A stretch of 50,489 nt of DNA from Planctomycetota bacterium (GTDB lineage Bacteria > Planctomycetota > Planctomycetia > Pirellulales > PLA5), in assembly GCA_003576845.1 (NCBI GenBank), contig QEVJ01000071.1, forward strand, positions 1 to 50,489, read 5' to 3'. Below the pieces are notes generated by a model. The model made no database searches, was not told the DNA's origin, and was given only the letters and a program-made list of their open reading frames with translations. Of the stretch, positions 9,301 through 50,233 are shown piece after piece; within the stretch, counting starts at the first letter, position 1, and each line of letters opens with the position of its first letter. The position numbers and the translations under genes are program-made.

Positions 9301-9973
9301 CGTCCGTGCCGATGAGCGAGTCGTAGTCGCTGTCCATATCGTAGCCGACGCCACCCGTCCCCGCCGTCCAAGTCGAATCGTCGAACGCGCCCGTCGTCCA
9401 ATCGACTACCAGCGAACCGTCCGTGGGCACGTGCGCGCGGACCGGCCCATTTGCCGTCACGCGGATCGTTTCCGTGCTCGTCACACCCGCACCATACGCC
9501 ACGTCGGCGACTTGTTGCGGATACGGATCGAAAACCGACGTCATCGTCTCGCCGTCGGGCTTCACCAGCGCGAGAAACTCACCCTCGCCCGAGAGGCGAA
9601 AGTTCGTATGCAACTCGTCGGGCGGCGGCGTGTTGTCCTCGGAAGCGAAGACGACGAGATAACCGCCCGGCGCGAGCACGGTCGAGGGAAAGCTCCATTT
9701 CGTCAGGTTCGCCTCGTTGTCGGTGAGGTGCCAGCCGGCAAGATCGACCGGCGCGTCGCTCGGGTTGTGAATCTCGATCCAGTCCGAAAACCGCCCCTCG
9801 CCGTCTTGAAGCGTCGAACTATTGATCGCCACGAACTCGCCGATCACCGGATCGGCGGCGAGCATCGTTCGCGCTTCGAGCCATTCGCAACCGAACGATC
9901 GGCGATGGTGACGCTTGGCATTCTGGGGTCCGCGGGCGGCAACACGTATCAGACGCAACGGCAGTCGGGCCAT
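3389..9973 (-). CDS. Giant exported CotH-kinase / LamG / lamin-tail / dockerin protein with LEPR-XLL-like N-terminus
   Basis: Predicted 2194-aa cell-surface or secreted protein. Order: basic N-terminus with WLEARTMLAA (residues 31-40, a variant of the planctomycete LEPR-XLL export motif); lamin-tail domain about 42-160; galactose-binding-like module with YDDGFVAYLNG near 259-269, interrupted by a LamG domain at about 287-520; a second such module near 700-745, interrupted by another LamG at about 753-980; CotH-kinase domain about 1165-1528 with LPWDLDLV near 1399; a third, uninterrupted YDDGFVAYLNG module near 1664; two more lamin-tail domains near 1772 and 1894; type I dockerin at about 2059-2110 (GDVNGDGGVDLVD and GDLDGDGAVGRSD); Ala/Arg-rich tail. 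The start ATG at 9973 has GAGGGA 4 nt upstream; the frame is open upstream but the LEPR position supports this start. CotH homologues phosphorylate proteins in spores; activity here is unproven. Confidence 0.93.
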   Translation of the reverse strand: MARLPLRLIRVAARGPQNAKRHHRRSFGCEWLEARTMLAADPVIGEFVAINSSTLQDGEGRFSDWIEIHNPSDAPVDLAGWHLTDNEANLTKWSFPSTVLAPGGYLVVFASEDNTPPPDELHTNFRLSGEGEFLALVKPDGETMTSVFDPYPQQVADVAYGAGVTSTETIRVTANGPVRAHVPTDGSLVVDWTTGAFDDSTWTAGTGGVGYDMDSDYDSLIGTDVEAAMHGVNPGVYTRTKFTVDDATEVDSLLLDVQYDDGFVAYLNGEEVASRNAHSSAVAPPTGLVSYWNFDGTTQDRAADFVNNSGSVADNLAPRGGTARYVAGRVGQALAVGVQGGDATDLAAPASDDVRLPAAYAIEAWINPSDLNGPWQRLVLNWGGAAALHSYHFAIRNESGFTNAVSLFHGQTSGAEPNANGGTVVANQWQHIAGVADGSFLRVYLNGMEVAATPYDGTIKAQASEGLGVGDSNTALSTIKFNGLLDELAMWSVPLTPSQVMSHYQAGALGYGLTPVGGSTELEWNSAAPLDRADIAALAVETIDVTPLASLVQPGENVLAIHALNSSASDRDLLIRAGLRSADIVVDPNSHRYFATPTPGGPNGTGVSDLGPIVRDVAHEILEPSGVTTTTLVSASGPVQAYVPTSDALGLEWTEADYVPGTHGESWTTGSGGVGFDLTGDYGPQIGVNVQGTMQGANASVYVRSEFSLDDAAEIERLKLRVKYDDGFAAYLNGQRIASRNVPGVGGLSPASGLATYYSFDDTLADQAPLFTNNSGATVDTLTATAAAGTVATSYQAGRVGQAVRLSRLSGQAAMLTAADSNDLDLAGDWTIEAWVMPDGVNTGEWERFATKWFPGTTSWHWSFRYANNGLDLFANGAQVINGQTGLPANSLPAGVWSHVAMTGSALSNTITAWINGVAVATAPYVAVTNGNAPLTLGNFRISDAAFQYSGLIDEFAIWRVALSQQQLQSHVAAGSAGYGLTPAGGGSSGVPWNAAATAAHPNAAATQFEEIDVSQFRHLLESGANVLAVHALNVSASDDDFLIATELVGEAGSDTERPIRVTADVLPTLDAVGSVSLVYRRMFDAEQTTPMFDDGTHGDATAGDGVFTALLPASVAAPGEMLRYAVRALDVGGVATRAPLFADPIGSPEYFGTVIDDPAIVTQLPVLHRFIQNEAAAETRTGTRASLFYSGEFYDNVFIRIRGGTAVNWPKKSYKIEFNDGEHFRFRPDLPRVDEINLNATYTDKSYSRAILAYELHDDSGGKGPMTLPVRIEHNGQFFSLALWVEEPDRDFLRRYDMDPDGALYKASANPTNGLTGSASVFDKKTRKDEDFSDLQALINGLAQSGTALERFIFDNVDISAMVNFMAVDVILQNIDATDKNFYIYRDTEGDGEWEMLPWDLDLVLGPNALNTDTIVAQSDAPPGNTSHPFLGTLAFPYNGRKNHLFDAIVNTPRTREMFLRRVRSLMDQFLGAATTPAEQRYFEKRLDELVALLGPDVLLDKARWGANAHFPGATYTLQQAVDRLENEYLAPRRTHLFVTHSQSSEPTPVTTVLASGAAAKAYVPTDGSLGLAWTQPAFDDATWLSGTSGVGYDEDTTYNSSLGLNLRSRTQFPNPADWPKLIDANNDGTSENDSVYIRIPFEVTNPAALTQLKLRMKYDDGFVAYLNGVKVAEANAPASPQWNSASTALHDDGAALQFVDFNIAAFAGVLVTGTNVLAIHGLNDMTNGVGTSSDMLLLPEIVNGTPTTGGSVGIPGEQTGFPAIAFGAIDYNPAGGNQDEEYIALVNQNAFAVDISHWRLSGGVEFTFPAGTVIPTGETLYVAADVAAFRTRTAGPRGNQSLQVVGGYRGNISNFGETIVLSASDSAGSEVVVASVDTPSTPSETQQFLRITEVMYHPSDPTPDELLAGFDDGDRFEFIELYNTSATTTLQLAGVKFTSGIAFEFGAASLPPGGYAVLVSDAAAFAERYGGGIPIAGQYAGNLSNGGEAITLDDPDGSTIHDFAYDDADPDWHPAADGGGPSLVIVDPFGPLDRWSQPTGWRASSAAGGSPGQSDDAPGDVNGDGGVDLVDLAILQTHFGLAAGALRTQGDLDGDGAVGRSDAAILASNFGRAALAAPASAAPSPAAAAVASASRRAASELPPRIAGLRAERARRPEPRAVDTVLDGDATGGLSIAREMRRTATRRAMQRFA

Positions 9974-10026
9974 CGATTCCCTCGGGCGATTTGGAAGTGG
10001 GTGAAAGATTCCGGAGGTTACGCAAA

Positions 10027-10056
10027 GCGAGCGGTCGACGCCGGTCGACCGCTCGC
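10027..10056 (-). terminator. Strong 13-bp stem-loop, candidate terminator of the PEP-CTERM gene
   Basis: GCGAGCGGTCGAC (10027-10039) and its exact reverse complement (10044-10056) flank a 4-nt loop. It lies 67 bp past the stop of the PEP-CTERM gene and 53 bp before the start of the giant CotH gene. On the minus strand it is followed by only three T residues, so it is either a weak intrinsic terminator or an RNA-stabilising or processing hairpin between two co-oriented surface-protein genes. Confidence 0.5.
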
Positions 10057-10123
10057 CCGAGATTCCTCGTATTGCTCGTCGGCCCACGCGTCGCCTGCAG
10101 AGCGTCCATTGTCCTCGGTACCG

Positions 10124-36662: not shown

Positions 36663-39600
36663 CTACCGCCGCAATGCCCGCGCGACACGGGCGGTTCGCA
36701 AGGTTTGTGCCCCGTCGTTCGCCGCGAGACCGATCGCGGAATCGACGGCGTTCGGTGCAGCCGACCGCGCGACACGACGCGACGCGGATCGGGCGGCGCG
36801 CGCGGCGACGACGGCCGAGCCGGCATCGGACGCGCTCGCGGCTCCGGCGGTGTCTTCGCGCCGGGTATCCCGCGTCGCCGCGATGGATTGTCGCGGAGCG
36901 ATCGCGCCGCCGCCGGATACCACGAGCGCGCTCGACGCCGAGGCCGCGAGCGAGCCGCCGCCGAAGTTCCGCACGAGCATCGACAAGTCGGCAACCGTGA
37001 CCATGCCGTCGCCGGTGAAGTCGCCGTCGCCCCAGCCGCCCGGCGAACCCAAGTTCTGCCGCACGGTAAATACGTCGGTGAGCCCCATGCGGCCGTCGAG
37101 GTTGGCGTCGCCGAAGCTCGCGCCGATCAGCGTGGTCACCAGATACGTCCGGTCGCTCGCGTCGAGCGTGCCGCTGCCGTCGAGGTCGAAGTGCGCATCG
37201 TACGTTCCGGCGCTCAGAGCGAACGTCAGGGCGTCGATGTCCGCCGGCGTTACCGTGCCGTCGCCGTCGCAATCGCCGGGGAGCGGCGTCGTGTTCGCGC
37301 TGCCGGGAGTTCCGCCCGGCGTCTGGCTCGCCATCCAGTTGGAGATCTGGTTGCCGTAAACGTTCGGACTGATGCGCTCGAGCGAGGCGCCGCCGCCGTC
37401 GGCCGCGGTCGGCCACGGCGCGGTGTCGTCGTAATTCACGCGGTCGACGAGGAATTCTTTCCGTTGGTTGCGGCCATCCTCGCGTTTGATTTCGTCGTCG
37501 TTGCGCACGAGTTCGATTTCGCCGCCACCGTTGGGCAGGTCGCCGAACCACGGTCCCGCGACGATAACCTCCAGTCCGAGGTTGTGCTGCAAGCGGAACT
37601 CGCTCGGCGAGATGCTCGTCACGACCGCCCGGCCTCCGGCGGGCAGCACGGTTCCCTGAGCGAACGTGAATTGAACGGCGCCGGCGAGCCGCCATTCGAA
37701 CCCCGGTTGGCCCAAATCGACGGGCGTCGCGGAGGTATTGACCAATTCGACGAATTCGACGCCGCTGGCCTGGTTGTACATGATCTCGGAAATGACGACG
37801 GGGCCGACGCGCGGCCCGCTGTTCTCCGCGCCGAACGTCGTCGTCTGCTGCGGGAGCATGTCGACCACGCCGGCCACGTTTTCATAGCGCCCAAACGACA
37901 CGCCGACCTCGGTTCCGCCGAACGTGACCGATTCGGCGTAGCCCGCCATCGCGCCGTATTCGTCTCCCGCAACGAGGTGCAACGTTTCGCCGAAGCTGCT
38001 CAAGCCGAATACGCCGAAATCGCTCTCACGGCTGAGGACCAAATAGCCGTTCGCCGGCACGACGGTTCCGCCGGGGATGCGATATCGCGTCAGGTAGATC
38101 AGCGGCGAGATTTCGCTGTTCGAGTCGCCGAGATACCAGCCGCCGATGTCGATATCGGCATTCGTCGTGTTCCGCAGTTCGATCAGGTCGTTGAACCCGT
38201 CGTCGCTTTTGGTGAGCACTTCGTTGATCAGGATCGCGCCGGGGTTCGGCGTCGTTCCCGGATCGGGCCGGCCCGGCGAACCGGCGAGGTTGCTGCTCGG
38301 CCGCCACGTGCTCCGCTGCTCCCACAGTTCCGGAGCGATCGTGTCGTCGATGACCGAAAGCGTCCAAGGCATCGTCTCGCGGTCCATCAAGACGAACCAG
38401 TCGTCGTCGTACTCGAAACTCAGCACGGTCTGGCCAAGGCCGTCGATGAGCGTCAGGCGTTCCTGACGGTTGATGTCGCCGGAGTACAGCCCCAGCACGT
38501 TGATCTGCGTCACGTCGGTGCGGCCCGAGAGCAACTCGTAATCGCCGACAATAACGCCGTATTCGCCGGGGAACAGGCTCGTCAGGCCCATCGAGAAGTC
38601 GTAGCGGATGCCCTTGGTGAACTGGACTCCGGCAAGGTCGATCGGCTCTGCGCCAACGTTGCGGACTTCGACGAACTCGGAGTTCGAATGGCCGACGAAG
38701 CCGACCTCCGTCACGCGGAGGTTCGCTTTGACGTCGGTGGAAAGCGGCCCGAGGTACACGCCGACGTCCTGCGACGAGTCGGTTTGTCCCGCGAAGATCG
38801 GCAGCGGCGCGGTCAAGCCGGACCCGCGATTGACGTCGCTGTCGGCCAGATCGTCGCCGCCTTGATTCATCGGGCTGAGCGTGCCTGCCGGCGGCGTGAA
38901 CCGCAGCAAGTACCCGCCCGGCGCGACGTTCGCGATCGTGTAGTTGCCCGCGGCGTCGGTCGTCGCCGCGCCCACGAATGCGCCTTCCGGAGTCAAGAGC
39001 TGAACGCCGACGCCGGCGAGCGGCTGTTCGCCGGATTCGCGGACGCCGTTGCCGTTAGCGTCGTTCCAGGCGGAGCCGGCAACGGCCGTCGCGGCGGTGG
39101 TTCCGCGCAGCCCGAAATCGCGCGTGACGATCGCATTCGACGCCAGCGCGAATGCCGCGGTGCGGCCCGTGACCGGATTGGCGCCGGCCGTGACGGTCGT
39201 GCCGTCGGGCCGCGCAATCTCGACGATGTAGGCTCGCGGCAAGAGGTCGGCGAAAACATACGTGCCGTCGGCCTGCGTCCGCACCGCGGTAACGAGCGTG
39301 CCGTCCTCGCGGAGCAAGCGGACTTCGGTCGCGGGCGTTAGCGCTTCTCCGCCGGATCGTATTCCGTCGCCGTCGGCGTCGTCAAAAACGACGCCGCGAA
39401 TGCTGGCGCGATAGAACAATCCGCCGTCGAAATCGAGCAGGTTCGCGCCCGCTTCCACAACGAACGCGGGCGTGACGCCGCTGGTGGGCTGAAAGTCGCT
39501 GTCGAGGCTCGCGTCCACGTTCGACTGCCGCGGGGCGCTGAGCGCCTCGTTGTTGACGACGTACGGCGAATAGCTGAAGGTCGTCAACCCGAGCTGATAG

Positions 39601-40580
39601 CGAGCGGGTGGAAGTCCGTCGAACCGGTAGTTGCCTTCGGCGTCGGTCGTGACGCGCGGGCCGTAGTTGTACCAACCTTCCCGCGCGCTCGTGACGATTC
39701 CCACCTGGCGCCCGGCGATGCCCGGTTCACCGGGGTCTTGACTGCCGTTGGCATTGAGATCGTGCCAGAGCCGGCCGCCGACGGAAAGCGGCGCGTCGGT
39801 CGAGATGTGCACGTGGGATTCCACCGTTTCGCCGCCAAGGTGAAACGTGGGCGTGCGCAAGGTTTGCGCATCGAACAGCACCCCGCCCATCGACGATGCG
39901 ACGGTAGCGTTTCCCAAAGGCTCGACGCGGAGGTAATAGTCTCCTTGAGGCACTTCGGCAAACGTGTAGAGGCCCGTTTCTTTGGTCGTGAACTCGGCGT
40001 ATTCGTTGCCTGCAGCCGTGTGGAGCGTAAACTTGATGCCGCCTAGCGGAATCATCTCTTGGACTCCGTTGATCGTACCGACGTACGTCGCCGAACCTTC
40101 GATTCGCCCGGGCTGCCAGACGCCCACGTCGACGTTCGTCGCGGACTGGCCGTCGGATAGCGTCACCACCGACGTAAACCCAGTCGCCGGGTTGACGTCG
40201 TTGTCGAGCGCTTCGTCGGACGTGCGATTGAGCGGGCTGTAGCGATAGGCGGCATTGTCGCGGAGAAGGGCGTCTCCCAGCGAGATGACGTAGTCTCCGG
40301 CGGGCAGCCCACCGATGGAATACTGACCGCCCGAAATCGGCGTGGAGGCGACCGGTCCCGACGCCAAGCCGCTCGCTGTGTAGAGCAGCACGGTGAAGCC
40401 GTCGACCGACGCCGTTTCGCTTGCATCGCGGACGCCGTCGCTGTTCGCATCGAGCCACACGGCGCCGCCGATCGACGCGGAGAGGACCTGCCGAGCTTCG
40501 AGCGGTTCGAAACCGCCACGGTGCGGCCGACGCGACGTAGTCCGATCCGTACGCGGAAGTTTTGCTGCGAGCGAGAACAT
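36663..40580 (-). CDS. Surface protein with SdrD B-like repeats, lamin-tail domains and dockerins, LEPR-XLL-like N-terminus
   Basis: Predicted 1305-aa exported protein. The N-terminus has FEPLEARQVLSASIGG, a LEPR-XLL-type motif. Five Cna-B/SdrD-like beta-sandwich repeats span about 35-615 (openers such as GAVWLDANSDGVRDASE, GRLWHDLNANGSQDPGE, GSAWNDANGNGVRESGE). Three lamin-tail domains begin near 618, 780 and 927. Two dockerin-like calcium-binding regions follow (GDCDGDGTVTPAD near 1100, GDANLDGRMGLTDVF near 1157, then GDFTGDGMVTVADL). The tail is Ala/Arg-rich and ends VARALRR. This is a typical long stalk-like adhesin architecture; binding partners are unknown. AAGGGG about 10 nt before ATG 40580 supports the start. 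Confidence 0.93.
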   Translation of the reverse strand: MFSLAAKLPRTDRTTSRRPHRGGFEPLEARQVLSASIGGAVWLDANSDGVRDASETASVDGFTVLLYTASGLASGPVASTPISGGQYSIGGLPAGDYVISLGDALLRDNAAYRYSPLNRTSDEALDNDVNPATGFTSVVTLSDGQSATNVDVGVWQPGRIEGSATYVGTINGVQEMIPLGGIKFTLHTAAGNEYAEFTTKETGLYTFAEVPQGDYYLRVEPLGNATVASSMGGVLFDAQTLRTPTFHLGGETVESHVHISTDAPLSVGGRLWHDLNANGSQDPGEPGIAGRQVGIVTSAREGWYNYGPRVTTDAEGNYRFDGLPPARYQLGLTTFSYSPYVVNNEALSAPRQSNVDASLDSDFQPTSGVTPAFVVEAGANLLDFDGGLFYRASIRGVVFDDADGDGIRSGGEALTPATEVRLLREDGTLVTAVRTQADGTYVFADLLPRAYIVEIARPDGTTVTAGANPVTGRTAAFALASNAIVTRDFGLRGTTAATAVAGSAWNDANGNGVRESGEQPLAGVGVQLLTPEGAFVGAATTDAAGNYTIANVAPGGYLLRFTPPAGTLSPMNQGGDDLADSDVNRGSGLTAPLPIFAGQTDSSQDVGVYLGPLSTDVKANLRVTEVGFVGHSNSEFVEVRNVGAEPIDLAGVQFTKGIRYDFSMGLTSLFPGEYGVIVGDYELLSGRTDVTQINVLGLYSGDINRQERLTLIDGLGQTVLSFEYDDDWFVLMDRETMPWTLSVIDDTIAPELWEQRSTWRPSSNLAGSPGRPDPGTTPNPGAILINEVLTKSDDGFNDLIELRNTTNADIDIGGWYLGDSNSEISPLIYLTRYRIPGGTVVPANGYLVLSRESDFGVFGLSSFGETLHLVAGDEYGAMAGYAESVTFGGTEVGVSFGRYENVAGVVDMLPQQTTTFGAENSGPRVGPVVISEIMYNQASGVEFVELVNTSATPVDLGQPGFEWRLAGAVQFTFAQGTVLPAGGRAVVTSISPSEFRLQHNLGLEVIVAGPWFGDLPNGGGEIELVRNDDEIKREDGRNQRKEFLVDRVNYDDTAPWPTAADGGGASLERISPNVYGNQISNWMASQTPGGTPGSANTTPLPGDCDGDGTVTPADIDALTFALSAGTYDAHFDLDGSGTLDASDRTYLVTTLIGASFGDANLDGRMGLTDVFTVRQNLGSPGGWGDGDFTGDGMVTVADLSMLVRNFGGGSLAASASSALVVSGGGAIAPRQSIAATRDTRREDTAGAASASDAGSAVVAARAARSASRRVARSAAPNAVDSAIGLAANDGAQTLRTARVARALRR

Positions 40581-42587: not shown

Positions 42588-43169
42588 TCACTTACCGGGC
42601 ATTCCGGGCGGTCGCGTCGCCGGTTCGACCAGGCGATCCTCGACCTCCACGGACACACCCTGCTGCAACATTCGCACCGCGACAACGAGAAAAGTGCGCC
42701 GCTTGCGTTGTAGGATCGTGCCTTCGATGCCTTCCAACGGGCCTTTTCGCACCCGCACCCATTCGCCGGGCGCCAGCCGTGTCTCGACCGTCAACGGTTC
42801 TCCACAGTCGATCAACGTCTGCACGCGGGCCAAGTCTGAGCAAAGCGCGTCGCCGTCAGGAACCGGTAACACCGAGCATACCCGGTTGGTCTTAAGGCTC
42901 AGCTCGCGGTCCCGATGGTCGCCGTAGACGAATACATAACAAGGAAACACCGGAACGAATGCGCAAACGGGACGACCGCGCCCGGAAACCGAGCGCGCTA
43001 CGAGCGGCAAGTAATGCGCGACTTCCTGTGCGCGAAGCGCGCGGGCCAGCGCTTTTTCTTGCCTCGATTTCGTATACACGATCCACCAACGGCGGCCACT
43101 GGTCGTGCGCCCCAGGTCGTCCAGCAAGTTGACCGGGTACACCGCGGGCTCGGGTGGGAGTATGGGCAT
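42588..43169 (-). CDS. NusG-like transcription elongation/antitermination factor (NGN + KOW)
   Basis: A 193-aa protein. The NGN domain starts WWIVYTKSRQEKALARALR and includes AHYLPLVAR and FVPVFPCYVFVYGD. The KOW domain is at about 130-178: PGEWVRVRKGPLEGIEGTI and FLVVAVRMLQQGVSVEVED. This is the layout of specialised NusG paralogues (RfaH, LoaP, UpxY), which act on particular operons by binding paused RNA polymerase. Here it lies with CBS, Hsp20 and CsrA genes, not a polysaccharide cluster. Its ATG has no Shine-Dalgarno; an in-frame TGA lies 8 codons upstream. A strong ribosome binding site 30 bp upstream serves another frame. Confidence 0.88.
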   Translation of the reverse strand: MPILPPEPAVYPVNLLDDLGRTTSGRRWWIVYTKSRQEKALARALRAQEVAHYLPLVARSVSGRGRPVCAFVPVFPCYVFVYGDHRDRELSLKTNRVCSVLPVPDGDALCSDLARVQTLIDCGEPLTVETRLAPGEWVRVRKGPLEGIEGTILQRKRRTFLVVAVRMLQQGVSVEVEDRLVEPATRPPGMPGK

Positions 43170-43198
43170 TGTCGTAAGCCAAACGTGAGGTCAATCAT
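42998..43198 (-). other. Out-of-frame overlapping short ORF with strong ribosome binding site at the NusG-like gene
   Basis: The GGGAGG at 43203-43208 precedes ATG 43198 by 4 nt, and the reading frame then runs 66 codons (MIDLTFGLRQCPYSHP...) across the start of the NusG-like gene in a different frame. The composition (many Arg, Trp, Ser, Cys) suggests it is not a functional protein. It may be a leader peptide that controls translation of the NusG-like factor, or the two frames may be joined by a frameshift. Confidence 0.3.
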
Positions 43199-43283
43199 GA
43201 TGCCTCCCTGGTTGTCTTCACGGCGTTCCGTCGTGGCGTGCATCCAATGCCCGCCGCCGCCAAGACGACAATCTCCATTCCCG

Positions 43284-43706
43284 TCAAACCTGTGCCGTGA
43301 GCGTCGGCTCGACGATCTTGCTGAGATTCGACAGTTCGCTTGCGCACAAGGCCAGCATGTCGTCGAACGAGACAATGCCCACGAGTACGTCGTTCTTGTC
43401 GACGATCGGCAAGCGGCGAATCTGGTGCTGGGCCATCAACTGCGTGGCGTTGAAGATGCCCTGATCCTCTCGAATCGTGATCGGCGGCTGCGACATGATG
43501 CGGCTGACCGAGGATTCCGGCGCCGCTTCGCCACCGCACAATCGGATGGCGATGTCGCGGTCCGTGACCAATCCCTTGACCTGTTTTCCCTCCGCGACGA
43601 CGGCCGCGCCCACGTTGTGGTCGCGCATTTTCCACATGGCAGTGACGATCGTGTCGTCGGGTTCGACGGTCACGACGTTGCTGCGGAATTGTTCGCCAAG
43701 ATGCAT
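43284..43706 (-). CDS. Two-CBS-domain protein
   Basis: A 140-aa stand-alone CBS pair. First CBS: VVTVEPDDTIVTAMWKMRDH and GLVTDRDIAIR; second: ITIREDQGIFNATQLMAQHQ and GIVSFDDMLALCA. Such pairs bind adenine nucleotides and are often stress or dormancy proteins (compare mycobacterial Hrp1 of the DosR regulon). The strong AAGGAG 7 nt before ATG 43706 sets the start. Located between Hsp20 and NusG-like genes on one strand. Confidence 0.93.
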   Translation of the reverse strand: MHLGEQFRSNVVTVEPDDTIVTAMWKMRDHNVGAAVVAEGKQVKGLVTDRDIAIRLCGGEAAPESSVSRIMSQPPITIREDQGIFNATQLMAQHQIRRLPIVDKNDVLVGIVSFDDMLALCASELSNLSKIVEPTLTAQV

Positions 43707-43812
43707 GACGTATCTCCTTCTTTTGAGACAGATGAACGCCCGGTTCCAAACGAGAGAAAGGCCACCCACCGCGCCGCGGACACGTGCGCCGCCGCGCGTC
43801 TTTCGAGCGGCG

Positions 43813-44277
43813 CTACGTCTTGACCTTGATCTTGCGGGACTTCGCTTCGTCGGTTTTTTCCATCGTGATGGTAAGCACGCCGTCGCGATACTGCGCGTCG
43901 ACCTTGTCTTCCTTCACGGCAGCCGGCAGTGTAGTGCTCCGCGAGAACTTGCCGTAGCGCCGCTCGATGCGGTGATACGTCTTGCCTTTCTCTTCCTTCT
44001 CCTCCTTGCGCTCGCCGCTGACCGTAAGCAGATTGCCGTTCACCTGCACGTCGATGTCGGCCGCTTGAATGCCGGGAAGATCCATTTTCACTTCGATCGT
44101 CTTGTCGGTTTCCGAGACGTCGGCGGCGGGCACGACTTGCCCCGCCCAGACGTCCTCGCCTTCGCCCCAGGCGCCGGAGATCAAATCTTCCATCTCTTGT
44201 CGCAGCGTTGAGAGAGGTCCGCGACGAAACCAAGGACGAATCGCTCGTAGCGGCGATGCGGTCAGTGTTCCTGCCAT
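43813..44277 (-). CDS. Hsp20 / alpha-crystallin small heat-shock protein
   Basis: A 154-aa ATP-independent holdase chaperone. The alpha-crystallin domain spans about 50-140: VPAADVSETDKTIEVKMDLP, GNLLTVSGERKEEKEEKGKT, and the conserved GVLTITMEK. A short basic C-terminal end (KSRKIKVKT) has I-x-V, the inter-subunit motif. The WFRRGPLSTLRQEMEDLI start is typical of the family. AAGGAGAAAGATC before ATG gives a strong ribosome binding site. Its neighbours (CBS, receiver, CsrA) suggest induction by stress such as oxygen limitation. Confidence 0.95.
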   Translation of the reverse strand: MAGTLTASPLRAIRPWFRRGPLSTLRQEMEDLISGAWGEGEDVWAGQVVPAADVSETDKTIEVKMDLPGIQAADIDVQVNGNLLTVSGERKEEKEEKGKTYHRIERRYGKFSRSTTLPAAVKEDKVDAQYRDGVLTITMEKTDEAKSRKIKVKT

Positions 44278-44318
44278 GATCTTTCTCCTTGCACATAGGA
44301 AAATGGTTCAGGCGATGC

Positions 44319-44765
44319 CTAACTGAGTTTCGAAGCGAGTCCGACACCGGCCGTCGCCCTAGTCGAGGCTTCACGGTGCAAGCGGCGTGCCACGCGCCGG
44401 CTTTCCGCAGCGTCGTGGATGGTCGCGCGAATCTCGGCCAGCGAGCAGGGCTTCGTCATGTAGGCGTTCGCGCCGGAGGCGAATGCCTGTTCGCGGCGGG
44501 CGGGGTCGGCGCGGCCCGATAGGACCACGATCGCCACATCGGGATCGGCGAGGCGCAACGCCTCCACCGCTTCACAGCCATCGCGACCGCGCACGGACCC
44601 GTCGATCAGCGCAACGTTGAACGCGCCGCGAGAAAACGCCTCCATGCAGTGCGTCAGACTGGTGCACGTCATGACGGTGAAACCACAGCCCACGAGGAAG
44701 TCGCCCAAAATCTCACTGAAATCTTCGTCGTCGTCGACGAGCAACACACGCAGCGAACTCGACAT
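44319..44765 (-). CDS. Stand-alone response-regulator receiver protein
   Basis: A 148-aa CheY-like receiver. LRVLLVDDDEDFSEILGDFL holds the acidic pair; the phospho-acceptor Asp is in ALIDGSVRGRDG (about residue 54), where the usual L-D-L-x-M-P-x-x-D-G is loosened. ANAYMTKPCSLAEI contains the conserved Lys. The C-terminal 25 residues are basic and have no output domain. It starts one base after the stop of the divergent CsrA-like gene, so the two are co-translated. A partner kinase may be among the four plus-strand genes. Confidence 0.9.
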   Translation of the reverse strand: MSSSLRVLLVDDDEDFSEILGDFLVGCGFTVMTCTSLTHCMEAFSRGAFNVALIDGSVRGRDGCEAVEALRLADPDVAIVVLSGRADPARREQAFASGANAYMTKPCSLAEIRATIHDAAESRRVARRLHREASTRATAGVGLASKLS

Positions 44766-44766
44766 A

Positions 44767-44994
44767 TCAGCTACACTCCACGACGTACGGGGACTGCTCG
44801 TTGTCCGAACTCGAATAGTACGACTCCACACTGCGGTCGGCGCTGCTCGCCGTAGGCGATTGCTTGCAAAGTGATACGCCGGGCGGGAGTTGAATCGACA
44901 TTTCCACCATGTCGGGTTTTGTCCGCACGATAACGATCTCGATGTTCCCACCGATGCGAATGCGTTCGCCGGGCAGGCAGATGACCTTGGACAT
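44767..44994 (-). CDS. Divergent CsrA-like protein with acidic/Ser-rich C-terminal extension
   Basis: A 75-aa protein. Residues 1-17 (MSKVICLPGERIRIGGN) align without gaps to the CsrA start of the gene just upstream (MLVLSRRVGESIQIGSN). Leu4, Arg6 and Arg7 of the RNA-binding first strand are replaced (Val, Cys, Leu), and at the end of the fold PPGVSLCKQSP stands where CsrA has the key Arg-x-Glu. The tail (about 48-75) is Ser/Glu-rich. It could be a dimerisation partner or antagonist of canonical CsrA, or bind different RNA; unknown. AAAGGAG precedes ATG 44994. Its TGA lies one base from the receiver start. Confidence 0.75.
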   Translation of the reverse strand: MSKVICLPGERIRIGGNIEIVIVRTKPDMVEMSIQLPPGVSLCKQSPTASSADRSVESYYSSSDNEQSPYVVECS

Positions 44995-45046
44995 GGCTTT
45001 TCTCCTTTGGGCAGGAAACGGGCGGTGGTGCAAGTGTCGCCGCGGG

Positions 45047-45268
45047 CTAATCGACGTCGGGATCGGTGAAGCGGAGGCCCCGATTCACACCGGCGGCATC
45101 GTCCGTTGGCCAGTTGTCGAATGCCGGCAACTCGCTGCGGCGAATCGGGATTTCGCGTGGACAGGCGATGCCGACGCGAATCCGGCCGCCCGCGTTTTCA
45201 CAAACGGTTATCACGATGTTCGAGCCGATCTGAATCGACTCACCGACTCTGCGGGAAAGAACCAACAT
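45047..45268 (-). CDS. csrA: Carbon storage regulator CsrA
   Basis: A 73-aa RNA-binding translational regulator. MLVLSRRVGESIQIGSNIVI, then ITVCENAGGRIRVGIACP and REIPIRRSEL match canonical CsrA, including the first-strand L-x-L-S-R-R and the I-R-R-x-E that binds GGA motifs. CsrA dimers sit on ribosome binding sites and repress or stabilise mRNAs. The tail after the fold is about 25 residues long. GGAGACGCC precedes the ATG. No flagellar or FliW gene is nearby, the usual context for CsrA. Confidence 0.92.
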   Translation of the reverse strand: MLVLSRRVGESIQIGSNIVITVCENAGGRIRVGIACPREIPIRRSELPAFDNWPTDDAAGVNRGLRFTDPDVD

Positions 45269-45336
45269 GAGGCGTCTCCGTATGAATCCGTTCGACTGGT
45301 AACTCAGTTCAGGTCTGGGGCTTGAAAGAACTACCG

Positions 45337-45618
45337 TCAGTCTGTGGCCGACGAGCAAACGCGGAGGCAGTTCTCGACTCGCGACACTTCGTCGATCCCC
45401 CGCACTATCGTTTGCGCGAGTTGCTTGAGGTGATAGGTCGCAACGACGCCGCTCAGCGTCAGGACGCCGTCGGCATAGCTGCACGACACGCGACGCATCG
45501 CCGCGAACCGAGCCGCGCGCAACCGCTGTTCGGCCAGCGCCGCGACAATTCGGAAATCGGTCGCAGAAAACTCGTCGCACGTCGCGAAACGAGCGGTGGA
45601 CAAAGCTTGTGCAAGCAT
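45337..45618 (-). CDS. BON-domain protein
   Basis: A 93-aa protein whose C-terminal 60 residues form a BON domain (CSYADGVLTLSGVVATYHLK, RGIDEVSRVENCLRV). BON proteins bind phospholipid or osmoprotective partners and are common in stress operons. There is no signal peptide in the chosen start (MLAQALSTAR). The ATG at 45618 has GGAGG 5 nt upstream. It begins the minus-strand regulatory series and diverges from the protoglobin kinase operon. Confidence 0.85.
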   Translation of the reverse strand: MLAQALSTARFATCDEFSATDFRIVAALAEQRLRAARFAAMRRVSCSYADGVLTLSGVVATYHLKQLAQTIVRGIDEVSRVENCLRVCSSATD

Positions 45619-46110
45619 GGACACCTCCGGGGAACAAAGCGTGAAAGAACACGCCCGGCAAGACATTCCGGGAAGCGTCCGAAGCGGCGGACGCACAAGC
45701 GGCAGGCCCAAAGCCCGCAAGACCACAGCGACAAAAAAAGCCCGCCAGCGCTCTCGATTGCACCGAAGGGCGTCGTTTGCCTGTCTCAAATGGCCCGTCA
45801 CGAACCATTCGACAAGAGCAATTTATTCCCGGTCGACCGATTCGTCAATCCGGACAAATTCGATTTCGTTAGATTTTCTCGTCAGGCAAACTTTTTGGAA
45901 ATGCGTCGCTCGTGCCTCGCCATTTCGTCGCCGTAAACCTCGGTTTTGCCGCAAAAGCGCTCGTCGATGGACCGATTCGCGCGGGGAGTGTGCGATCCGG
46001 CACAGGTCGGGTGGGCACGGGAGTCATTGTTCGGCTACCTCGCACCGTGCTGCACGAAAACTCGCCGACTTTTTTGCTGTACCAAACGATTCCAGTCCGC
46101 GGGCGTCGCC
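45619..46110. other. 492-bp divergent region between the two halves of the regulatory island, no gene
   Basis: This region separates BON (minus) from the protoglobin kinase leader (plus). Reading frames through it have random composition. The motif GCGTGAAAGAAC at 45639-45650, just upstream of BON, recurs with one mismatch at 45320-45331 upstream of csrA. The centre (45800-45900) is AT-richer and could hold minus-strand promoters. Confidence 0.4.
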
Positions 46111-46118
46111 TATATAGT
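46090..46118 (+). promoter_or_regulatory. Candidate promoter of the protoglobin kinase operon
   Basis: A TATAGT -10 hexamer at 46113-46118 within TATATAGTAAAAG. The -35 region 17 bp upstream (TTCCAG, 46090-46095) is poor, so an activator may be needed. The transcript would start near 46124, right before the first hairpin of the leader. Confidence 0.4.
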
Positions 46119-46119
46119 A

Positions 46120-46209
46120 AAAGACGATTGAACGCCTCGCGATGGGACGTTCAAAGCCAAAGCTCACGCAAGCTCACGAGACCCGCCGCCTGGTCCGTGG
46201 GCTTTTTTG
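46120..46209 (+). ncRNA. Candidate structured leader / attenuator RNA upstream of the protoglobin kinase operon
   Basis: Hairpin 1 pairs TTGAACG (46128-46134) with CGTTCAA (46148-46154); CCT/GGG can extend it to leave a six-base loop CGCGAT. After a 15-nt linker, the terminator hairpin occupies 46170-46204. Its 5' arm AAGCTCACG is also present one 10-bp step earlier (46160-46168), so either copy can pair with the 3' arm. The start codon is 28 nt after the T-run. It could be an attenuator or an independent RNA of about 85 nt. The operon encodes an ANTAR-domain regulator, a family that binds paired six-base-loop hairpins; loop position 4 is G as expected, but position 1 is not A. Confidence 0.5.
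46170..46208 (+). terminator. Intrinsic terminator 28 nt before the protoglobin kinase gene
   Basis: AAGCTCACG-A-GACC pairs with GGTC-CGTGGGCTT: 13 base pairs with one bulged A and one G-U wobble, an 8-nt loop, followed by six T residues. The stem and T-run are of textbook quality. Position between a promoter-like -10 box and a start codon, not after a gene, points to attenuation. Confidence 0.75.
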
Positions 46210-46236
46210 TTGCGGCGATGCGTAGCGACCCGTCCC

Positions 46237-47421
46237 ATGAACCCCGACATTGTCTATCAACGCTTTCTGGCGATTCGCTCGTACATCGGCTGGGACGAAC
46301 ATGACGAACGTCGGATTCGTGCCGTCGCCCCGATTCTGGAACCCTGTTTTGCGGGTCTGGTCGACGATTTCTATGCGGAAATCGACAAACACCCGGACGC
46401 CCGCCGAGTTATTACCGGCGGCGACGCCCAGGTTGCCCGCCTGAAACAGTTGCTGAATCAGTGGCTGTGGGAATTGTTCTACGGCGAGTACGATTCGAAC
46501 TACGTGATGCGGCGCTGGCGGGTCGGCCTGCGGCACGTTCAGATCGGCCTTGAGCAGACTTACGTGAACGCGGCCATGTCGCGGCTCCGCGGCGGCCTGC
46601 TGTTGTATGGAGCCACCCACCACGCGGGCGATCAGGCCGAAGTGCTGGCCACGCGCATGTCGGTCAACCGGCTCGTCGACTGCGACCTGGCGATCATCGA
46701 AGACGCCTACCAAACGGAGTTCATGGCGCGTCAGCAACGCACGGAGCGGCTGGCGGTCATTGGCCAGGTTTCCGGCGGCGTTGCACACGAACTTCGCAAC
46801 CCGCTGAATGTCATCAAGACGTCGATCTACTACTTGCGAACCGCAACGACGGTAGCGCCGGAAAAAATGAACGCGCATTTGGAGCGAATCGACCGTCAGG
46901 CGACGCTCGCCGACCAGGTCATCACGGCTCTGCACGACTTCGCTCGGCTGCCGGAGCCGGTCGTCCAGCCGGTCCCTCCCCGGCGACTTTTCGAATCGGT
47001 CATCGCGTCGCTCTCTCTGCCGGGAAACGTCGAGGTGAGCATGGATTGTGCCGCTGGCCCTGGCGCGGTACGCGCGGACGAGCGGCAAATGGCGATCGTG
47101 CTGTCCAATCTCGCCCGAAATGCTTGCGATGCCATGCCTGAGGGTGGTAAGCTAACCCTCTCCGCGACCGTTGCGGAAGGCGAAGCGCAATTGTCCGTTA
47201 GTGATACGGGCAAGGGTATTGCACGGAGCGCACTGCCGAAGGTCATGGAACCGTTGTTCTCGACCAAGGCCCGAGGGCTCGGCCTCGGCTTGGCGATCGC
47301 CAAGGCGATCGTCGAGAAACACCGCGGTCGGATCGCCGCGGAAAGCGAATTGGGCAGAGGAAGCAGGTTTACGATTGTCTTGCCGATCGCCGTCGGCGAC
47401 GCGAGTGATGGGAGCGCGTGA
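46237..47421 (+). CDS. Globin-coupled sensor histidine kinase (protoglobin + HisKA + HATPase)
   Basis: A 394-aa cytosolic protein. N-terminal protoglobin domain about 1-165: GWDEHDERRIRAVAPILEPC, DDFYAEIDKHPDARRVI, and the proximal heme ligand candidate His100 in RVGLRHVQIGLEQTYVNAAM. Such heme domains sense O2, NO or CO. Kinase core: H-box GGVAHELRNPL with His184, N-box NLARNACDAMPEGG, DTGKGIAR and GLGLGLAIAKAIVEKH. No membrane segments. Start ATG 46237 is chosen over an earlier in-frame TTG because the leader terminator overlaps that site. Weak ribosome binding site. Its TGA overlaps the next ATG (TGATG). Confidence 0.93.
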   Translation: MNPDIVYQRFLAIRSYIGWDEHDERRIRAVAPILEPCFAGLVDDFYAEIDKHPDARRVITGGDAQVARLKQLLNQWLWELFYGEYDSNYVMRRWRVGLRHVQIGLEQTYVNAAMSRLRGGLLLYGATHHAGDQAEVLATRMSVNRLVDCDLAIIEDAYQTEFMARQQRTERLAVIGQVSGGVAHELRNPLNVIKTSIYYLRTATTVAPEKMNAHLERIDRQATLADQVITALHDFARLPEPVVQPVPPRRLFESVIASLSLPGNVEVSMDCAAGPGAVRADERQMAIVLSNLARNACDAMPEGGKLTLSATVAEGEAQLSVSDTGKGIARSALPKVMEPLFSTKARGLGLGLAIAKAIVEKHRGRIAAESELGRGSRFTIVLPIAVGDASDGSA

Positions 47422-48152
47422 TGGTGAATTCAGGGCTCCACTTGCTCATCGTCGACGACGAGCCGGACATCTGTGCGAACTTGAGCGACATCTTCGCCGA
47501 CCTCGGGTACGAGGTCGATGCCGCCCATAACGGCGCCGACGCGCTCGCGCTCATCGAGCGCAAGTTTTACGACGTCGCGCTGCTCGACTTGAAAATGCCC
47601 GGAATGGACGGAGTGGAGTTGTACCACCGGCTGCGCGAAGCGTCGGCCGGCACGGTGGCGATCATCGTAACGGCGTATGCGAGCACGGAGTCCGCTCGAT
47701 CCGTGTTGTCGGCTGGCGCTTGGCAGATCGTCTCGAAGCCGGTGGACTTTTCGCATCTCTTGAATCTGGTGCGCGACGCGTTGGACCAGCCCTTGCTGCT
47801 GCTTGTCGACGACGACAAAGACCTTTGCCAATCGTTGTGGGACGTTCTGCGTCAGCAAGGCATCCGTTGTTCCCTCGCGCATAGCGTCGAAGAAGCCTGC
47901 GAAGTTCTGGCGAAGCGTGCGTTCCCGGTGGTGCTTGTCGACATGAAGTTGCCCGGCGGCAACGGTTGCGACGTGGTCGATGCCGCCAAGGCGGTCGACG
48001 AGGCGACGCGGATCGTCCTCATCACCGGCTACCGCCAAGAGGCGAGCGAGCAGGTGCGGCGCGCGCTGGAGCGCGGGGCGCATGCGGTCTGCTTCAAGCC
48101 GCTGGATATCGACAGCCTCTTGGGAACCCTGAGAACCCTTGTGGGAAAGTGA
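47421..48152 (+). CDS. Tandem receiver (REC-REC) response regulator
   Basis: A 243-aa protein of two CheY-like receivers with no output domain. First: LLIVDDEPDICANLSDIFAD, phospho-acceptor Asp56 in LLDLKMPGMDG, Lys in IVSKPVD. Second, from about residue 127: LLLVDDDKDLCQSLWDVLR, Asp174 in LVDMKLPGGNG, and CFKPLD. A double receiver suits a branched phosphorelay, taking phosphate from the protoglobin kinase and passing it on or acting as a sink. GGGAG at 47409-47413 precedes ATG 47421, which overlaps the kinase stop. Confidence 0.93.
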   Translation: MVNSGLHLLIVDDEPDICANLSDIFADLGYEVDAAHNGADALALIERKFYDVALLDLKMPGMDGVELYHRLREASAGTVAIIVTAYASTESARSVLSAGAWQIVSKPVDFSHLLNLVRDALDQPLLLLVDDDKDLCQSLWDVLRQQGIRCSLAHSVEEACEVLAKRAFPVVLVDMKLPGGNGCDVVDAAKAVDEATRIVLITGYRQEASEQVRRALERGAHAVCFKPLDIDSLLGTLRTLVGK

Positions 48153-48158
48153 ACACGC

Positions 48159-49640
48159 ATGGCGAATGACTCGCCAACGCTGTTGTCTGTCGCTGTGGAG
48201 ACGTGCCCGCGCATACTCGTGATCGAGGACGACGCCGACGCGCGCGAAAACCTGACCGACCTTTTGGAGTTGGATGGCTTCGAGGTCGATGGCGCCGCGA
48301 CGGCGCGGGAAGCGCTCGCCAATCCCAGGTTGAAGCAATATGCGGCCATCGTGCTCGATCGGCGGCTGCCGGATGCGGTCGCCGAAGACTTGCTGCCGGA
48401 CCTGCGGTCGCTCGCCCCCGATGTGGGAGTCATCGTCGTTACTGCATTCGCGGAAGTATCGGGAATCATCCAGGCGATGCGCGGCGGCGCCGCCGACTAT
48501 ATCTTCAAGCCCGTCGATGCCGAGTTCCTCCGGGCGAGCGTTGCCCGCCTCGTCGAGCGGCGATCATTGCAGCAACTCGTCCGACGCAGCGAGTCGGCGC
48601 GGCTCGCGCTCATGGAGTCGGTGCCGTGCATCGTGCTATCGCTCAAGGCCGACGGCCGCATCGCGTACTTCAACGAGTTTGCCGCGGAATTGCTCGGCAC
48701 GCTGCCGAGCGACGCAATCGGACAGCCTTTTGGCGACATGTTGAAGCCCGAACTGCAGGAAGGCGGCGGTCGTCAACGAGTGCGATACGATCCGCTCGTC
48801 CACGGCCGGATGCACGACGTCGAAGCGGTCATCTACTGCCGCGACGGTTCCGAGCGGTGGACGATATGGAATTGGAGCGCCGTCGAGGATGCGGATGGAA
48901 ACGTATTGCTCGGCGTCGCTCAAGACATTACCGCCCGCAAGGCAGCTGAGGAACGGGCCCTGCAGAACGAGCGGCTCGCCGCCATCGGACAGACGATGGC
49001 CGGGCTGGTTCACGAAAGCCGCAACGCCCTGCAGCGTTCCAAAGCCTGTTTGGAGATGTTAACGCACGAGGTGGACGACCGGCCGAATGCGCTCAAGCTG
49101 CTCTCTCGCGTGCAGCGCGCTCAGGACGACTTGCACCGTTTGTTCGAAGAAGTCCGCGAATACGCGGCGCCGCTGCGGCTCGATATCAAACCGACCGACG
49201 TGCCTGTGATTTGGCGCGAGTCCTGGGAGCAACTCGCCGCGCGACGCGGTGGGCACAACGTCGCGCTCATCGAGCGGCTCGATCCTAAGGATGCTGTTAT
49301 CCCGGTCGACCGGTTCGCCTTGGGGCAGGTGTTCCGCAACGTTTTCGAGAATGCGATCGACGTCTCGCCCGCCGACGGCGAGGTTTCCATCGAAATGGCC
49401 GCCGATTCGCTCTCTGGCACGGACGCCGTCCGCATTTCGATTCACGACCAGGGCCCCGGTTTTTCCGAAGAGCAGAAGAAACGCATCTTCGAACCGTTTT
49501 TCACCACCAAAACCAAGGGCACGGGCCTCGGCATGGCGATTTGCCAACGCATCGTCGAAGCTCATGGCGGCCGGATCGCCGTCGAATCCAACGGCGCCGG
49601 CGCGGAGATTGCCATTCGTTTACCGCGAGGAAAACCATGA
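48159..49640 (+). CDS. REC-PAS-histidine kinase
   Basis: A 493-aa cytosolic protein. N-terminal receiver (RILVIEDDADARENLTDLLE) with Asp67 in VLDRRLPDAVAED; PAS domain about 148-265 (GRIAYFNEFAAELLG, VAQDITARKAAEE); HisKA H-box GLVHESRNALQRS with His285; HATPase with NVFENAIDVSPADG, HDQGPGFSEEQ and GTGLGMAICQRIVEAHGG. Its receiver precedes the kinase core, as in kinases that are themselves controlled by phosphorylation from another kinase. It starts 6 bp after the tandem-receiver gene and ends overlapping the ANTAR gene (ATGA). Confidence 0.94.
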   Translation: MANDSPTLLSVAVETCPRILVIEDDADARENLTDLLELDGFEVDGAATAREALANPRLKQYAAIVLDRRLPDAVAEDLLPDLRSLAPDVGVIVVTAFAEVSGIIQAMRGGAADYIFKPVDAEFLRASVARLVERRSLQQLVRRSESARLALMESVPCIVLSLKADGRIAYFNEFAAELLGTLPSDAIGQPFGDMLKPELQEGGGRQRVRYDPLVHGRMHDVEAVIYCRDGSERWTIWNWSAVEDADGNVLLGVAQDITARKAAEERALQNERLAAIGQTMAGLVHESRNALQRSKACLEMLTHEVDDRPNALKLLSRVQRAQDDLHRLFEEVREYAAPLRLDIKPTDVPVIWRESWEQLAARRGGHNVALIERLDPKDAVIPVDRFALGQVFRNVFENAIDVSPADGEVSIEMAADSLSGTDAVRISIHDQGPGFSEEQKKRIFEPFFTTKTKGTGLGMAICQRIVEAHGGRIAVESNGAGAEIAIRLPRGKP

Positions 49641-50233
49641 GCGAGAAACTACGCATTGCCGTGGCCGACGACGAGCCCGACATGCGCGACTTTTTCGAAT
49701 GCGTCCTGCCGCAATGCGGGCACCAGGTCGTCGCCGTGGCGGAAACCGGCGCCCAACTCGTCGAGCTTTGCCGCAAGGTGCGGCCCGATCTGGTCATCAC
49801 CGACATCAAGATGCCGGACATGGACGGCATCGCCGCGAGCGACGCCATCTGCGCCGAGCGGCCCGTTCCCGTGATTCTCGTCTCCGCCTACCACGACCCG
49901 CAACTGATCGACCGCGCGACGTCGGATCATGTGATGGCGTATCTCGTCAAACCGATCGGCGAGGCCGACCTCGAACCGGCGATCGCTGTCGCCGTGCGGC
50001 GGTTTCAACAGTTCGAAGCCGTGCGGCGCGAGGCTTCCGATCTGCGTCAAGCGCTGGCCGACCGCAAGGTCATCGAGCAAGCCAAAGGCATCTTGATGAA
50101 AACGACGGGCGCGGACGAAAAGGACGCGTTTCGACGCCTGCAGGAACTGGCCGCCGAGCGCAACCAGAAGCTGGTCGAAGCCTCCCAAGCCGTCATCGCG
50201 ATGGAAAAGGCGTTCCGTCCCGCCGGTGTGTAG
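49637..50233 (+). CDS. Receiver-ANTAR RNA-binding antiterminator
   Basis: A 198-aa protein. Receiver: IAVADDEPDMRDFFECVLPQ, Asp56 in ITDIKMPDMDG, and Lys in YLVKPIGEAD. A short coiled coil leads into an ANTAR domain (about 145-195): ADRKVIEQAKGILMKTTG and EKDAFRRLQELAAERNQKL. Phosphorylated ANTAR regulators (AmiR, EutV, NasR relatives) dimerise and bind two adjacent hairpins in mRNA leaders, blocking an intrinsic terminator. This is the apparent output of the operon. GAGG about 8 nt upstream and ATGA overlap support the start at 49637; the frame is open further upstream only as overlap. Confidence 0.94.
   Translation: MSEKLRIAVADDEPDMRDFFECVLPQCGHQVVAVAETGAQLVELCRKVRPDLVITDIKMPDMDGIAASDAICAERPVPVILVSAYHDPQLIDRATSDHVMAYLVKPIGEADLEPAIAVAVRRFQQFEAVRREASDLRQALADRKVIEQAKGILMKTTGADEKDAFRRLQELAAERNQKLVEASQAVIAMEKAFRPAGV

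Follow-up and report, generated by a model that had tools for sequence, protein, structure and literature searches.

How does a gas-sensing relay reach its target genes when no DNA-binding regulator is found beside it? This question is raised by positions 42588-50233 of the window, a stretch of 50,489 nucleotides from a Planctomycetota bacterium (contig QEVJ01000071.1; the host contig is 64.5 kb and the planctomycete-type genome is 7.05 Mb). At this locus, a plus-strand operon for a protoglobin kinase relay, ending in a receiver-ANTAR (REC-ANTAR) response regulator, stands divergent from minus-strand genes that start with BON and CsrA. To our knowledge, the best-known heme-kinase oxygen responses (FixL, DosS/T and Nmp) all end in DNA-binding regulators. 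A first-pass annotation had seen no classical DNA-binding regulator in the interval, and had proposed that gas sensing acts through a phosphorelay after transcription initiation. The domain search (Pfam, with family cut-offs applied) likewise recognised no DNA-binding regulator in the interval 42588-50233, and no AAA+ or HTH domain. All the genes named in that annotation were present where it had placed them, with the tight or overlapping spacing that it had described for the plus operon; the single weak case was the second CsrA, which scored 25.6 bits, under the Pfam cut-off of 27.

Leader elements of the two divergent operons

Loci were sampled in three rounds, by the protoglobin genes of the order, by ANTAR genes (396 genomes of the order) and by orthologs in the class. 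Two search models were used. R1, a model of a first hairpin (P1) alone, was made before the class loci were fetched, and R2 is a two-hairpin model of P1 and a second hairpin, P2. The R1 search of the class loci gave many new P1 hairpins, frequently placed close behind a TTGAC-N17-TAnnnT promoter, and these revealed P2. With R2, 61 distinct elements were gathered.

Upstream of the BON-CsrA genes (minus strand), a sigma-70-like promoter (TTGACG-N17-TAAATT, 45820-45848), like those found upstream of P1 in relatives, is followed by a P1 hairpin (45788-45810; R1 26.5 bits), a P2 hairpin (GGC-AAACGAC-GCC, 45769-45781) and a predicted intrinsic terminator (45733-45771) that ends in U7. According to sequence and fold, the 5' arm of the terminator is the 3' arm of P2, and the two structures are exclusive. 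P1 and P2 together matched R2 with 43.1 bits and an E-value of 2e-5 across the whole genome, to be read as rough, as are all E-values of such short models in GC-rich genomes; single elements that lack a terminator (e.g. at loci L333, L340 and L346) are untrustworthy. The leader of the protoglobin kinase (plus strand) contains P1 (46130-46152; R1 24.9 bits, itself a seed sequence), a candidate degenerate P2 (AGCU-CACGCA-AGCU, 46161-46174), proposed from sequence and the nascent fold and failing R2, and an intrinsic terminator (46170-46208). The U6 end of this terminator is 28 bases upstream of the start codon of the kinase, and the second AGCU of P2 also belongs to the terminator base. A terminator upstream of the globin kinase was also present in L045, L070 and L080, and P1 with a terminator was present in the leaders of both divergent operons at the window locus, L045 and L080.

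P1 consists of nine pairs closed by a RYGAN pentaloop, with an invariant U-G pair beneath the closing pair and G3 of the loop in 37/37 hairpins. The P2 loop is an A-N-G-R-N pentaloop, with A1 in 33 and G3 in 36 of 38, and the linker between the hairpins is about 4-8 bases. The outer pairs of P1 differ almost wholly between loci while pairing is kept (paired cells made up 88.9%, and 62.5% in shuffled alignments). Covariation was 0.78, which none of 500 shuffles reached, in comparison with 0.25 after shuffling. For the P1 and P2 helices together, 94.9% of cells were paired against 78.4% after shuffling (0/500). In 46 of the 61 elements, the 3' arm of P2 lies inside the 5' arm of a terminator hairpin followed by a U-run, whereas random positions at the same loci gave 0.9%. 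The terminator is not part of R2, and this overlap is therefore an independent check. Judged from sequence and predicted folding, both divergent operons of the window start with an attenuator, and the arrangement of P1, P2 and a terminator sharing the P2 arm is a new observation.

The Rfam search of the window at gathering thresholds matched no family. A canonical hexaloop with A1 and G4 was also sought in the leaders by manual analysis and was rejected, having no consistent placement. A regulon spread over the whole genome of the window was sought with R1 and rejected: the additional matches of about 21-25 bits were mostly coding, without P2 or terminator, and were discarded as GC-rich background. 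One P1-like hairpin of 25.2 bits (L250, G000:C208:42284-42306) lies upstream of a seemingly aat-type gene without a terminator, and may be due to chance.

REC-ANTAR, its relay and the genes behind the element

The presence of the element was compared with that of REC-ANTAR. Among 51 chosen genomes, the element occurred in 22 of the 26 with a REC-ANTAR ortholog and in none of the 25 without one. In the class survey (n = 397 genomes; orthologs with an E-value up to 1e-95 were counted as close), 33 of 40 genomes with a close ortholog had the element, in comparison with 6 of 357 others. When the genomes that had supplied the seeds were removed, the counts were 18/25 and 6/357 (p = 2e-20, with kinship ignored in the statistics). 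Within family f22, the element was present in 5/6 genomes with a close ortholog and in 1/25 with a weaker one. CsrA was found in all 25 element-less control genomes, in 2 to 17 copies, and protoglobin in many of them. Because of these co-presence counts, and since CsrA and protoglobin occur in controls that lack the element, the element follows REC-ANTAR.

The REC-ANTAR protein of the window (49637-50233, plus strand) scored 66.5 bits for ANTAR (cut-off 27.3) and 83.2 bits for Response_reg. Its orthologs in other families are 61-74% identical, which makes it the best conserved protein of the four-gene operon, and residues D11, D12, D56 and K105 are invariant among them. With an ANTAR domain behind a receiver that has the phosphoacceptor Asp, it is by its domains an ANTAR response regulator, and we propose it as the antiterminator. 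A second REC-ANTAR in the same genome (G000:C52:15375-15944, L227; 57% identity) adjoins a related kinase, and its locus has no globin, CsrA or P1. At L054 (12847-13485), the REC-ANTAR frame is lost ahead of the ANTAR domain in an otherwise complete operon, which is either real or an assembly error.

Three plus-strand genes, tightly spaced or overlapping, precede REC-ANTAR. The first encodes the protoglobin histidine kinase (46237-47421; Protoglobin 107.5 bits, HisKA, HATPase_c), the presumed sensor. The second encodes a REC-REC protein resembling NmpT (47421-48152; two Response_reg domains), which adjoins the kinase in relatives too, and the third a conserved REC-PAS histidine kinase resembling NmpS (48159-49640; Response_reg, PAS, HisKA, HATPase_c). 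The globin aligned to that of AfGcHK (5OHE) with an E-value of 4e-26 (RHVQIGL/VHVRIGL and DFYAEI/EFYDRI). Both the distal Tyr and the F-helix His are kept, residues that we take to have their general roles at the heme. The protein is thus built as in the AfGcHK type, with a protoglobin-like sensor (proximal His, distal Tyr) fused to HisKA-HATPase. The oxygen sensor AfGcHK is also the nearest solved globin structure, and by this analogy the signal of the heme protein is probably oxygen. Fused protoglobin-PAS-kinase proteins were seen at L074 (9027-10841; C278 of the same genome), L078, L241 and L247; at L241 and L247 the fused protein lies directly before REC-ANTAR, giving the relay in shortened form.

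The four-gene operon recurs across several planctomycete families. In the same-genus genome G008 the best match was a related receiver in a kinase-containing protein, and the operon was not there. The co-occurrence of the two halves of the locus was checked in planctomycete genomes, as the first-pass annotation had suggested, and was borne out across families. Where the REC-ANTAR ortholog was 58% identical or more, CsrA lay within 8 kb of it at 21 of 48 loci, with 0.7 expected (p about 1e-21 for the co-occurrence of relay and CsrA). The count was 18 for the 33 loci that also had the globin (0.5 expected), in comparison with 3/37 for ANTAR genes below 50% identity. BON accompanies CsrA at many relay loci, and in L070 the pair of CsrA and receiver likewise stands divergent.

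We also examined the genes behind the element. In relatives, the first genes after it, named by Pfam, were those of BON-CsrA, the relay operon, Hsp20, universal stress protein (Usp), GroEL, pyruvate:ferredoxin oxidoreductase (PFOR), acetyl-CoA synthetase of the ADP-forming type and ECF sigma factors, as well as a baeRF protein and a Crp-like protein whose next gene encodes a 4Fe-4S protein. The candidate targets are thus of the stress, chaperone and anaerobic-metabolism kinds. Large genomes had as many as 14 elements, and some of the genes behind them are distant from the relay (in G439, the PFOR gene is about 0.86 Mb from REC-ANTAR). In the genome of the window, Hsp20 sits within the minus operon itself. 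A protein of about 85 residues (HHRxFPEVxGEG...TLDSAPSDWRR), without a Pfam match, often comes first after the element (L287, with the element at 6229, L292, L298, L306, L308 and L320), and in L296 a Usp protein is fused to a stretch that resembles it.

Neighbouring genes on the minus strand are separated by only 1 to 114 bases, and all seven may form one operon. These encode a BON-domain protein (45337-45618; 31.2 bits, cut-off 27) conserved with CsrA, CsrA (45047-45268; 61.8 bits), a conserved neighbour, the divergent CsrA-like reading frame (44767-44994), a lone receiver (44319-44765; Response_reg 65.6 bits), Hsp20 (43813-44277; HSP20 91.4 bits), a CBS-pair protein of uncertain membership in the system (43284-43706; Pfam CBS) and a NusG-like protein, probably outside the conserved system (42588-43169; NusG 37.7 bits). 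The last has the NusG-N/KOW structure and is nearest to the UpxY/RfaH families, yet scores under their cut-offs. The first-pass annotation had counted the NusG-like gene, the second CsrA and the CBS pair as members of the system. At the relay loci of relatives, however, the NusG-like gene (rejected as a conserved partner) and the second CsrA do not recur and CBS recurs rarely; they are therefore probably passengers or local targets.

Elsewhere in the window, giant proteins of the secreted type are encoded at 3389-10087 and 36663-40580 (minus strand); their domains are lamin-tail, CotH or SdrD-B, and dockerin. Just past the window end, directly behind the ANTAR operon, lies a phage-type tyrosine recombinase (Phage_integrase 37.8 bits; contig C21, 50836-52152; L076 837-2153, minus strand), and the relay may thus stand at the edge of a mobile element.

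Proposed antitermination mechanism and its alternatives

We consider it likely that an oxygen relay of the Nmp kind has been rewired to ANTAR antitermination, and that it controls a hypoxia and stress regulon after initiation. The heme kinase would phosphorylate both the REC-REC protein and the PAS-kinase receiver, and oxygen would thereby keep the PAS-kinase off, by analogy with NmpU and NmpS. When oxygen falls, the PAS-kinase would phosphorylate REC-ANTAR, which would then hold P1 and P2 in the leader RNA. Because P2 and the 5' arm of the terminator use the same bases, this binding would block termination and the operon would be read. The sequences themselves show the order of the genes and its conservation, the covariation of the two hairpins, the sharing of bases with the terminator and the joint occurrence of element and REC-ANTAR ortholog; the RNA binding by REC-ANTAR, the oxygen signal, and the order and sign of phosphotransfer are what we infer here. 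At the window locus, the targets would be the operon of the relay itself (autoregulation) and the divergent BON-CsrA operon, possibly with Hsp20 and the genes beyond it. In relatives, they would also include Hsp20, Usp, GroEL, fermentation and sigma-factor genes, some of them unlinked. CsrA would add a second, translational layer, and seems to be controlled by the system rather than to serve as its output. Of the RNA-level outputs named by the first-pass annotation, REC-ANTAR thus stands as the proposed one, while CsrA moves to the target side and the NusG-like factor falls away. Its proposal of gas sensing through a phosphorelay, with control after initiation, is supported by the co-occurrence of the two operons across families, by the dual-hairpin and terminator leader that both share, and by the element before Hsp20, Usp, GroEL and fermentation genes.

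The relay might work by ANTAR antitermination in response to another signal (NO, CO or redox), or with the opposite sign, oxygen switching the genes on. Protoglobins bind several gases, and the polarity proposed above has the NmpU/NmpS analogy as its one source. However, PFOR and acetyl-CoA synthetase are targets that suit low oxygen, and the nearest solved globin is an oxygen sensor; we regard this variant as unlikely, with a minor but real chance of being right.

It is improbable that CsrA, or another RNA-binding protein, binds the leader hairpins in an autoregulation by attenuation, with REC-ANTAR acting on other targets. RNA-level autoregulation of CsrA is common, the elements at relay loci mostly adjoin CsrA, and the loci of ANTAR orthologs in the order that lack CsrA also lack P1. 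CsrA as the reader of the element is nevertheless disfavoured by its presence in all the element-less controls, by the P1 loop (RYGAN), which has no conserved GGA, and by the elements before Usp, Hsp20 and PFOR genes distant from CsrA. Paired like loops and the overlap of P2 with the terminator are, moreover, an ANTAR design.

A riboswitch, or another attenuator that is self-contained or read by a different trans-acting factor, merely co-inherited with REC-ANTAR, appears very improbable. The element and REC-ANTAR cluster in the same lineages, and the lack of an Rfam match would allow for a class not yet described, but the split within family f22 between close and weaker orthologs speaks against co-inheritance, and two small hairpins with identical loops are better suited to binding by a dimer of a protein than to forming a ligand pocket. 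That the two halves are adjacent by chance and the leader terminators ordinary is hardly credible: the NusG-like, CBS and second CsrA genes are not conserved, and terminator-like matches over the whole interval are no more frequent than in shuffled sequence, but the co-occurrence of the halves, the covariation and the overlap of P2 with the terminator all oppose it.

Several observations weigh against the proposed antitermination relay. In the plus leader of the window, P1 and the terminator are good while P2 is degenerate, and G004 has the operon and P1 without an R2 match. In the genome of the window, convincing elements were found only at the two leaders of this locus. Three of the 39 element-bearing genomes had no detected ortholog. 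The p-values are weakened by uncorrected phylogeny, which leaves the pattern within family f22 unaffected. Finally, the loops depart from the A1/G4 hexaloop of known ANTAR targets.

A broader reading, to which we give a cautious preference, is that in planctomycetes a whole hypoxia and stress regulon is controlled after initiation: an oxygen phosphorelay would activate one ANTAR protein, which would read a new class of dual-pentaloop attenuator at up to about 14 operons per genome, the relay and, as a second layer at the RNA level, CsrA among them. If true, this would be a natural case of a heme-kinase oxygen relay coupled to antitermination, with a defined and searchable RNA signature, and would give a candidate hypoxia regulon for planctomycetes, whose regulation is little known. 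It would also extend the ANTAR RNA code past the A1/G4 hexaloop.

Comparison with known systems

In the literature search, no paper joining ANTAR, CsrA and protoglobin was found, and papers on ANTAR, planctomycetes and antitermination were few and mentioned ANTAR once each. The first-pass annotation knew of no description of the combination as one system. The front end is less novel than it had supposed, as NmpU, NmpT and NmpS have the same domain order (PMC11841059). In Myxococcus xanthus, NmpU senses oxygen via a protoglobin, NmpT consists of two receivers and NmpS, a receiver-kinase, is switched off through phosphorylation by NmpU; at low oxygen NmpS phosphorylates NmpR, an NtrC-like, DNA-binding sigma-54 activator. 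The targets of NmpR comprise the genes of the relay, a CBS protein and a universal stress protein (PMC11841059). Matched by domain order and description, the window locus shares with Nmp, and with the AfGcHK locus of Anaeromyxobacter (PMC11841059), the grouping of protoglobin kinase, two-receiver protein and receiver-kinase. The oxygen signal is probably also common to them, and the predicted targets resemble the Nmp regulon. In contrast to Nmp, its second kinase has a PAS domain, and it ends in REC-ANTAR, with RNA attenuators at the targets, where NmpR binds DNA. Its domain order identifies the relay as Nmp-like, without the NtrC-like output.

Hsp20 and Usp genes are also among the targets of mycobacterial DosR, a likeness to the window system that extends to the heme kinases, and we know of no attenuators in the DosR system. 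DosR binds DNA and belongs to a short kinase-regulator chain, whereas no NarL-family regulator was recognised in the interval 42588-50233. DosR, DosS and DosT join heme kinases to a dormancy regulon (PMC9062744).

Actinobacterial ANTAR RNAs form a large dual stem-loop family in which A1 and G4 are only somewhat more than 50% conserved (PMC8164766). Like the window element they have dual stem-loops, and their loop sequence can drift; however, their loops are still hexaloops, terminators are rare among them, and no heme kinase relay is described (PMC8164766). In ANTAR targets such as those of EutV, NasR and AmiR, tandem hairpins have like loops, hexaloops with A1 and G4, and the second hairpin is exclusive with an intrinsic terminator (PMC3369931). 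The window system shares with them the receiver-ANTAR protein, the tandem like-loop hairpins and the exclusion of the leader terminator by the second hairpin, but it has RYGAN and ANGRN pentaloops with G3, a first hairpin of 9 bp in which a U-G pair is invariant, a gas-sensing relay, and stress and anaerobic targets. Because the hexaloop with A1 and G4 is replaced in this way, the element is, by its predicted structure, a variant class rather than a canonical member of the ANTAR-target RNAs.

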